Positions 21,449-23,140 of a stretch of 31,609 bases of DNA are shown here, piece by piece. The translations under genes and the position numbers were made by a program. The stretch spans positions 1 through 31,609 of the forward strand of contig SIBR01000042.1 of NCBI GenBank assembly GCA_009695065.1, written 5' to 3'. Position 1 is the first letter of the stretch; the number at the start of each line of letters is the position of its first letter. The notes under the pieces are model-generated. The model saw only the letters and a program-made list of their open reading frames with translations. It had not been told where the DNA came from and did not search any database. Origin of the DNA: Opitutus sp. (GTDB lineage Bacteria; Verrucomicrobiota; Verrucomicrobiae; Opitutales; Opitutaceae).

Positions 21449-22732
21449 TCATGCGAAATCCTTCCTGAAGCGCCAGACGCTCTGGACCAGTCCTTGCAGC
21501 AAACAGCAACTGAGCACAAAGGAACCACCGTAGCTGATGAGGGGAAGCGGTATGCCCGTGATGGGCACAAGCCCGATGGTCATCGCGATGTTCACAAACA
21601 CATGCACGGCGAACAGCACGGTGACGCCGATGGCGAGCAACGTGCCGAAGCGGTCCCTTGCGGAACTGGCAATGCGAATGCCGTTGAACAACACTATCCC
21701 AAACAGGCTCAGGACCGTGAGGCTTCCCAGAAATCCTTTTTCCTCCGCGATCACCGCGAAGATAAAATCGTTGTGTGCCACGGAGCGCGGCAGGTAGCCG
21801 AGCTGCGCCTGCGTGCCCTCCGTCCAACCCTTGCCGGTGAGCCCGCCGCTGCCGACCGAGATCTTCGACTGCCGCTGATTCCAGCCAATGCCGGTCGGGT
21901 CGTAGTTATCGGGGTCGACGAAAGAGAGAATACGGTTCCGCTGGTAATCCCTGAAAGGCATGAGGGGGTTACCCTCCTTCTCAAAGCGCCCGCGGTCGTG
22001 CGTGAATGAGTAGTTGTTCGCGCGCATAAACTGCACGTAGCGAGCACTATCCCACGTTACCAAGCCCATCAAGAGCAGGAACGCCCCCAGCGCGACCAGG
22101 AAGAAGCGCGTGGAAAGTTTGGAGACGTAGAGCATCGCAAAGACCATCGGGGGCAGGACAATTGCCGATTTCAGGTCGGGCTGGAGCAGGATAAGCAGCA
22201 TGGGCGCGCCCACCGCAAGGGCCAATTTCCCGAGCGTGCCCAGCGATTGGTTGATCGTGCCGATTTTCGCGCGGATCAGGACACTGGCGGTGATCAGCAG
22301 CACGGCGATCTTGGCCGTTTCCGAGGGTTGAAAGCTGCCCAGGGGTCCCAGCGGAATCCAGCGCTGGGCGCCCCAGCGCTCCGCCGCGGCCCCGCCGACC
22401 CCCGGAATGAGGACGACGAAGAGGGGCAGGAGGCACGTGATGTAGAACCAGTGCGCCACGCTGAGCCAGAAGCGGTAGTCGATCAGCGAAACCGACGTGT
22501 AGATCGCCGCGCCCAGCACCAGATAGACGATCTGCTTGAACCAATTCTGCCGGAGGAGGCCGAGGATCCCTTCCGCCGGGGCCAGCCGCGTGTCCGAAAA
22601 TTGCGCCGAATAGATGAAAGCGACCCCCAAAATCCCGAGCACGAACAACGCCACCGGCGTGAGCACGTCCCAATTTCCGCGCGTCGTCGGCTTGAAGACG
22701 TTCAGGTATTCGGTGGGTGCGGAGAGTTTCAC
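21449..22732 (-). CDS. rodA: Rod-shape-determining peptidoglycan glycosyltransferase RodA
   Basis: This 427-residue SEDS-family membrane protein has about ten hydrophobic segments. Diagnostic blocks are GSFQPSETAKIAVLL, the conserved DYQRNRILSFVDPDNYDP loop, GWNQRQSKISVGSGGLTGKGW, HNDFIFAVIAEEKGF and the C-terminal GIPLPLISYGGS. RodA polymerises glycan strands of the elongating cell wall with a class B penicillin-binding protein. The favoured start is GTG at 22732, whose GTGA overlaps the TGA of the truncated methyltransferase gene upstream; this suggests translational coupling in the ancestral operon. A longer form from ATG at 22798 is open but would run entirely inside that methyltransferase remnant. 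mreB, mreC and the penicillin-binding protein are not in view. rng follows 93 bases later. Confidence 0.92.
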   Translation of the reverse strand: MKLSAPTEYLNVFKPTTRGNWDVLTPVALFVLGILGVAFIYSAQFSDTRLAPAEGILGLLRQNWFKQIVYLVLGAAIYTSVSLIDYRFWLSVAHWFYITCLLPLFVVLIPGVGGAAAERWGAQRWIPLGPLGSFQPSETAKIAVLLITASVLIRAKIGTINQSLGTLGKLALAVGAPMLLILLQPDLKSAIVLPPMVFAMLYVSKLSTRFFLVALGAFLLLMGLVTWDSARYVQFMRANNYSFTHDRGRFEKEGNPLMPFRDYQRNRILSFVDPDNYDPTGIGWNQRQSKISVGSGGLTGKGWTEGTQAQLGYLPRSVAHNDFIFAVIAEEKGFLGSLTVLSLFGIVLFNGIRIASSARDRFGTLLAIGVTVLFAVHVFVNIAMTIGLVPITGIPLPLISYGGSFVLSCCLLQGLVQSVWRFRKDFA

Positions 22733-22863
22733 GGGGCGGTGCGGACGGCGATATAGCTCTTGGTCAGGCCAAGAAATCGTTCCCGCAGAATCGTGCAATC
22801 AGGGAAAAGGACGCGCATCTCCTCGAGCGTTAGCAACCGAACCTCGTCGAGAAACGTCTCGAC
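22729..22863 (-). pseudogene. C-terminal remnant of a class I SAM-dependent methyltransferase
   Basis: In the frame offset by one from RodA, the minus strand reads FLDEVRLLTLEEMRVLFPD followed by RERFLGLTKSYIAVR and a TGA. This is the typical C-terminus of small class I methyltransferases (an arginine-leucine strand, ELRxLFP, then RERxxGLTKSxxA). Only 44 residues are recognisable; upstream of about 22863 the similarity stops abruptly at a GC-rich palindrome and the sequence becomes the end of an EpsI gene on the other strand. The stop codon overlaps the GTG start of rodA. Most of the gene, including its SAM-binding domain, is missing. Confidence 0.65.
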
Positions 22864-22879
22864 CGGCCCGGGGGGCCGG
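22863..22879. repeat. GC palindrome at a gene-fragment junction
   Basis: CCGGCCC-GGG-GGGCCGG forms a perfect 7-base-pair hairpin with a 3-base loop. It sits exactly where the methyltransferase remnant (left) meets the EpsI remnant (right), so it marks a probable recombination or assembly junction. Confidence 0.6.
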
Positions 22880-22882
22880 CCG

Positions 22883-23140
22883 CTCGAGCCGCAGTTGGTG
22901 GCGTATTGGTTCGTGGGGGCGGACGAGGTGGTGGCGACGCACTGGCAACGGCTGGCCAGCGACGCCTGGAATCGGGTCGTCCACGCCCGGGCGGATCGCT
23001 GGGCCTATGTATTGATGCAAACCGATGCTTCCGATGACGAAGCGGCGGCGCTCGCGCGGATGCAGTCCGTGCTTGAGGCCACGCTGCCGGTTTTTCAGCG
23101 AGTGCCGGCACCGCGGAACGGTGCCGGCAAGAAAACTTGA
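22883..23140 (+). pseudogene. C-terminal remnant of exosortase-associated protein EpsI
   Basis: The last 85 codons before the RNase Y gene read LEPQLVAYWFVGADEVVATHWQRL and then ADRWAYVLMQTDAS, the hallmark C-terminal blocks of EpsI/exosortase C-terminal-domain proteins (YWFV..., RWAYV...). EpsI proteins are usually near 220 residues with an N-terminal membrane segment. Here nothing upstream of about 22883 matches: those bases belong to a methyltransferase end on the other strand. The frame remains open back to a GTG or ATG near 22760, but those residues are Arg/Ser-rich shadow sequence. The TGA stop overlaps the proposed TTG start of rny. EpsI acts with exosortase in polysaccharide export or surface sorting; no exosortase remains in the window. 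Confidence 0.7.

Follow-up and report, generated by a model that had tools for sequence, protein, structure and literature searches.

A probable deletion scar of a glycan/exosortase island between rodA and rny in Opitutus sp.

Introduction

How did the ends of two genes, both without their 5' parts, come to lie back to back between rodA and rny in an Opitutus genome? The locus lies in a stretch of 31,609 nucleotides (contig SIBR01000042.1; the window in what follows), where the gene order is RNase E/G (19613-21355), rodA, an interval of 402 bases, rny, a QueF-like gene, and inositol monophosphatase. Between rodA and rny the window contains the two 3' gene ends and nothing else. A preliminary description, made from the DNA alone, placed the ends of a methyltransferase gene and of a separate EpsI gene on either side of a GC palindrome, and proposed that whatever lay between the two genes, perhaps an exosortase among it, had been deleted, or else that the assembly had collapsed.

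Deletion scars and fossil gene ends are known from bacterial genomes, and the window resembles them in having two truncated 3' ends back to back between intact flanks. There is no structural difference; the locus differs from known cases by the recurrence of loss in one group. We suggest, with a probability of roughly 0.85, that the interval is the deletion scar of a glycan/exosortase island that lay between rodA and rny, and that the two tails are functionless leftovers. The deletion is most likely recent.

The two gene ends and their flanks

The features of the interval and its flanks are, in window coordinates:

21449-22732, minus strand: rodA; GTG start at 22732-22730, overlapping the stop of the methyltransferase remnant
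22729-22888, minus strand: 3' remnant of a class I SAM methyltransferase gene, about 52 of 212 residues plus stop
22863-22879, no strand: GC hairpin, inside the methyltransferase coding sequence
22888-22890, no strand: putative deletion junction, GCC common to both sides
22889-23140, plus strand: 3' remnant of a fused exosortase-EpsI gene, 83 residues plus stop, C-terminal part of EpsI/DUF3485
23103-23129, no strand: hairpin of 11 pairs where the EpsI remnant ends, directly upstream of the rny promoter-like element
23137-23164, plus strand: rny promoter-like element, TTGAGG-N16-TACGTT; the EpsI stop overlaps the first hexamer
23173-24753, plus strand: rny (ribonuclease Y), TIGR03319 E 1e-164, 548.6 bits (cut-off 454.35); conserved TTG start

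A profile search identifies rodA (PF01098, E 5e-85); against TIGR02210 (rodA_shape) it scores 333.3 bits (E 1.7e-99), slightly below the cut-off of 336.7. The position of its start is kept in relatives, and the overlap of its GTGA with the methyltransferase stop, pointed out in the preliminary description, is seen in the sequence.

The methyltransferase 3' end on the minus strand is real, and extends beyond the 44 residues first described: homology ends at 22888, not at 22863. The last 44 residues are read in one frame and are identical at 42 positions to the end of P0207, an intact protein of 212 amino acids, while profile searches with the tail itself gave no Pfam or NCBIfam match. The first 8 residues are read in a shifted frame, where LERPAPRA aligns with LERPDPRA of P0212 and homology reaches 22888. 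For the same stretch tblastn preferred an in-frame alignment with one gap, which likewise crosses the GC hairpin. Since homology runs to 22888 on either reading, the hairpin lies inside the methyltransferase gene and the joint beyond it, so that the palindrome cannot mark the exact junction, as had been claimed. It was also ruled out as the cause of the joint, being methyltransferase sequence and of a common kind: the window contains 33 stems of at least 7 pairs with loops of 3-8, this one among them, against a mean of 25 (13-37) in 30 Markov-1 simulations. The SAM-binding region is missing from the remnant; in the intact relative at locus L044, a protein of 228 residues, PF08241 covers residues 68-116, which the window does not have. 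The shifted frame is a sign of decay; as another gene of the window also has a broken frame (27222-28249, see below), a sequencing error could account for it as well.

On the plus strand, the EpsI 3' end described earlier is likewise real, as the last 83 residues from 22889 rather than 85 from about 22883. It matches PF11984 at positions 132-201 of 203 (E 1.4e-6, 28.6 bits, above the cut-off of 26.1) and TIGR02914 at 101-172 of 174 (22.4 bits, below the cut-off of 42.8); it is an EpsI remnant and falls short of the full-length domain. Its description as a separate EpsI gene had to be abandoned, as EpsI is the C-terminal domain of an exosortase in the relatives tested. Only residues 476-554 of a 556-amino-acid relative are matched at the window locus, and the catalytic part of the exosortase is missing. 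Both fragments match intact proteins, which removes the doubt, raised at the outset, that neither might belong to its family. The 11-pair hairpin at 23103-23129 is longer than the GC hairpin and is not followed by a T run.

The intact island in relatives

Of the confirmed RNase Y relatives, 158 in number, the best 80 were compared for gene order; identity over the best segment reached 90%. Most are labelled Opitutaceae, Opitutae, Opitutia, or Opitutus and the rest Cephaloticoccus, Rariglobus, Verrucomicrobia, or just bacterium. Where rodA and a nearly full-length exosortase-EpsI gene are both in view (25 of the 80), rodA and rny lie 6,806-9,667 bases apart, the ends being extrapolated from the matches. 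Pfam analysis of the islands at L010 and L044 found an O-antigen ligase, glycosyltransferases, and the exosortase-EpsI protein, with a methyltransferase in L044. The exosortase domain is present in both proteins (PF09721, E 8e-44 in L010 and 2e-40 in L044), together with a C-terminal EpsI domain (PF11984, E 9e-16 and 1e-20). Against NCBIfam, three intact proteins score best with XrtD (TIGR04152; 116-134 bits, cut-off 400) and XrtA (TIGR03109; 119-130 bits, cut-off 208), and by these models the proteins therefore belong to neither type. Eight further loci (L006, L007, L016, L030, L031, L032, L076, and L078) have no rodA or exosortase match in the 6-10 kb before rny, and this neighbourhood seems to be rearranged in them.

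The rny side of intact loci is occupied by exosortase-EpsI by definition of the class. At the rodA edge, a ligase-like gene, recognized by eye from a C-terminal motif, ends less than 200 bases from the rodA start in 21 of the 25 loci, and its stop, again by eye, overlaps the rodA start in 14. L044 has a methyltransferase at this edge, 122 bases from rodA. Matches to the methyltransferase tail are found directly before rodA at L012:1024-1110 (29 residues, E 4e-7) and L003:723-776 (18 residues, E 7e-4), with further island genes beyond them, which suggests older exchanges there. The edge gene differs between loci, and thus the rodA edge varies.

Among the matches listed (120 of the 345 proteins found with the exosortase tail region of L013), the closest intact protein is P0096 (570 amino acids, 12 members, 2 contigs), which has PF09721 and PF11984 in its precomputed annotation. 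Of the 83 residues of the window tail, 82 are identical in the end of P0096, and 71 in the full-length protein that ranks second in the same list. The same 82/83 identity is seen in P0002, a protein of 84 amino acids on a contig of 1,104 bases. Because of the agreement with P0096, a close strain is taken to carry the whole exosortase-EpsI gene, as judged from the tail, which is the part compared. P0096 presumably lies within a rodA-rny island, since it falls in the island group of the exosortase tree (see below). The methyltransferase P0207 and the exosortase P0082 are both listed with a longest contig of 34,296 and are probably on one contig. The one residue at which the window tail departs from P0096 is an aspartate where 174 of 177 aligned proteins have glycine; it is the sole window residue that departs from a column more than 90% conserved, and weakly suggests that selection may have relaxed after truncation.

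With 6.8-9.7 kb between rodA and rny in the 25 loci that show both rodA and a nearly full-length exosortase, and with the window's tail present in P0096, the gene-order comparison called for in the preliminary description gives good support to its proposal of a deletion between the two genes that included an exosortase.

A number of EpsH proteins fused to EpsI, near glycan genes, are described in the parts of Haft et al. (2006, PMC1569441) considered here. The intact relatives are similar, having an EpsH-type exosortase fused to EpsI with glycan genes adjoining, whereas the window has the EpsI end alone; those parts of the paper describe neither a constant position between rodA and rny nor repeated loss from it. 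A search of the literature on exosortases in Verrucomicrobia or Opitutaceae and on gene loss returned no paper that, by its title, is about this locus.

Recurrent loss among relatives

The 80 loci and the window were sorted into 41 intact, 18 empty, and 6 remnant loci. Intact means an exosortase next to rny, some of these loci being without rodA in view or cut by a contig end. Fifteen loci were given no class, as they ran into a contig end, had doubtful matches, or had other neighbours; L067 was excluded. Of the 65 scorable rows of the rny tree, 24 lack the exosortase here. Seventeen of the empty loci measure about 51-440 bases and L056 about 1,198. The remnants are the window, L023, L035, L065 (about 1,958 bases), L066, and L074.

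The EpsI matches of the five other remnants start at residues 367-491 of a 556-amino-acid reference, and the boundary is different in each of the six. By the shared C-terminal motif, again by eye, these five have a ligase-like tail beside rodA, faint in L035. The L035 remnant has an in-frame stop in its tail. L074 has one stop inside the match found with P0096 and none over residues 367-552 in a separate stop count, and none of 37 long matches at intact loci has an internal stop. With different breakpoints and the stop in L035, relatives do not keep the same short forms as conserved genes, an outcome that would have spoken against the preliminary description.

Presence and absence on the rny tree require at least 12 changes of state; the tree was built by a quick method, with no inferred root and no direction of changes, and 28 of its 77 inner branches have support below 80. 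It is the remnants that show loss; empty loci alone do not. The exosortase has been lost recurrently, at the same position, with different breakpoints, and scattered on the tree.

The joint and the origin of the interval

In the ancestor, a divergent glycan/exosortase island would have separated rodA from rny, with the methyltransferase gene at the rodA edge, its stop overlapping the rodA start, and the fused exosortase-EpsI gene at the rny edge. A single deletion of about 6-9 kb, by comparison with relatives, would have begun near codon 160 of the methyltransferase and reached codon 487 of the exosortase-EpsI gene. Joining would probably have proceeded through a short microhomology (GCC). The outward-reading rodA and rny would have kept their starts, and rny its promoter, and both tails would have been left as functionless remains. 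That there was one event, its size, the microhomology, and the lack of function are what we infer from these comparisons.

At the joint, the methyltransferase side is expected to read TGG-CTC-GAG (W-L-E), from residues GWLERP of P0212, and the EpsI side NTG-CCG-CAG, as deduced from VVVPQL of P0096 and MPQL of P0002. The two sides would perhaps have GCC in common on the plus strand, to judge from the residues of the intact proteins. No direct or inverted repeat of 12 bases or more was found in 22600-23200, and the putative overlap is GCC only, which makes repeat collapse an unlikely cause of the joint. The assembly collapse considered in the preliminary description is accordingly disfavoured. 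A broader kind of artefact would be the misjoining of an intact strain's sequence, through a chimaeric library molecule or a mix of strains. A full-length protein with the window's tail is indeed known (P0096), and P0002 starts with M where the window has GAG, so the sister allele differs at the joint. However, the window tail has a substitution of its own at a conserved place, and the exosortase is also missing here in 23 of the 80 relatives; we regard an artefact as improbable.

Somewhat less improbable, but still unlikely, is an origin in two steps, where the methyltransferase tail would be the fossil of an earlier island exchange and a later deletion would have extended up to the exosortase. 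The short methyltransferase-tail matches before rodA in L012 and L003, with island genes beyond, are the reason to consider it, since by analogy the rodA-side tail of the window may predate the exosortase deletion. Yet homology in the window reaches the joint without any foreign sequence, and the tail appears young, being 42/44 identical to intact P0207. That the tails are kept as short functional proteins is the least probable reading by a wide margin. The EpsI frame is open for 126 codons across the joint, and four of the five other remnant matches are without an internal stop; against this stand an EpsI boundary that is different in every remnant, the in-frame stop in L035, and the 18 empty loci without any exosortase-EpsI match. 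The scar of one recent deletion thus remains our preferred reading. As a mechanism the scar itself is ordinary, and its interest is as one of many losses at the same locus.

Relocation and PEP-CTERM content

P0096 was searched against 23 draft genomes without the gene at the rodA-rny position, and no relocated copy was found: there were five remnant tails, and all other matches were at most 33% identical. The exosortase tree places 35 island proteins and P0096 in one group (support 99), outside which all 40 exosortases from elsewhere lie; the tree was made by a quick method, two of its rows were flagged as long, and joins of long branches carry a warning. Relocation of the exosortase was rejected for these drafts, which may be incomplete; all 20 exosortases taken from elsewhere in such genomes are outside the island group. 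All 30 intact genomes searched have PF09721 matches, 2-6 per genome with pieces included in the count, as do 16 of the 23 that have lost the island gene, 15 of them above the cut-off. One exosortase match in the genome of L038 (G016:C16:23057-23935) is in four pieces, two of which have internal stops, and is apparently another decayed exosortase.

PEP-CTERM matches (PF07589) have a median of 7.5 in intact genomes (2-47, n=30) and of 1 in lost genomes (0-16, n=23), 9 of the latter having none (Mann-Whitney p 2e-6, or 5e-6 per megabase, with kinship ignored). Against the trend, L061 has 16, L017 and L047 have 9 each, and L080 has 8. Supported branches of the tree yield 7 independent pairs. At a threshold of 2 matches an average of 3.6 differ in the expected way, 0 in the opposite way, and 3.4 are equal (median p 0.125); at a threshold of 5 these values are 3.4, 0.7, and 3.0 (median p 0.375). 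The data suggest that exosortase loss is tied to fewer PEP-CTERM proteins, and since the independent pairs are too few the link stays a suggestion.

We give about even odds to the wider proposal that, in Opitutaceae, a single exosortase-EpsI lineage has been inherited vertically between rodA and rny and deleted repeatedly, and that its loss tends to be followed by that of PEP-CTERM proteins. If so, the family would be a set of natural knock-outs that tie this exosortase to its substrates, and the window would represent an early stage after deletion, its sister strain still being intact. One lineage at a fixed place, in one tree group, and with no relocation in 23 of 23 drafts is a useful pattern, by which the pairing of exosortase and sorting signal becomes testable in comparisons of close pairs.

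Start and probable promoter of rny

Most relatives have, by eye, a CTTGAG-like block, a spacer of about 16 bases, and TAnnnT immediately before TTG-ACG. Of 81 sequences, 79 were scored for TTGA at -48 to -25 of rny: it is present in 48 of 55 intact or other ones, in all 18 empty ones, and in all 6 remnants, against 7-13% in each control range. Between this TTGA and the TTG start, 28 of the 47 sequences scored for it have an in-frame stop. Because the upstream TTGA is conserved and is so often followed by a stop, the TTGA at 23137 looks like the -35 box of rny and 23173 like its start. The preliminary description had read this TTGA as an rny start codon overlapping the EpsI stop, which does not agree with the conserved TTG at 23173. 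A generic consensus scan of 22700-23250 returned no promoter-like site, the rny element included, and two terminator-like sites against a shuffle mean of 0.5. That the EpsI tail was kept as carrier of the rny promoter was ruled out, as only its last 4 bases belong to the element. The -10-like box ends 8 bases before the TTG start (window 23137-23175, and at the same place in relatives), and the rny mRNA may therefore be leaderless or nearly so.

Upstream of rodA, 50 of 81 sequences were scored for TTGC at -52 to -29. It is found in 22 of 26 intact or other sequences, in 10 of 18 from empty loci, and in 3 of 6 remnants, while control ranges gave 8-17% each. This TTGC, part of a possible rodA promoter inside the edge gene, is absent from the window at -52 to -29.

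Other broken genes in the window

An NAD-dependent epimerase-like gene at 27222-28249 on the minus strand is split across two overlapping frames, which separately match positions 1-126 and 135-240 of the 240 of PF01370; its frame is shifted through decay or sequencing error. Beside it, short broken frames at 26732-27165 on the plus strand resemble what we take to be the start of a membrane glycosyltransferase, and are perhaps a second decayed glycan gene.
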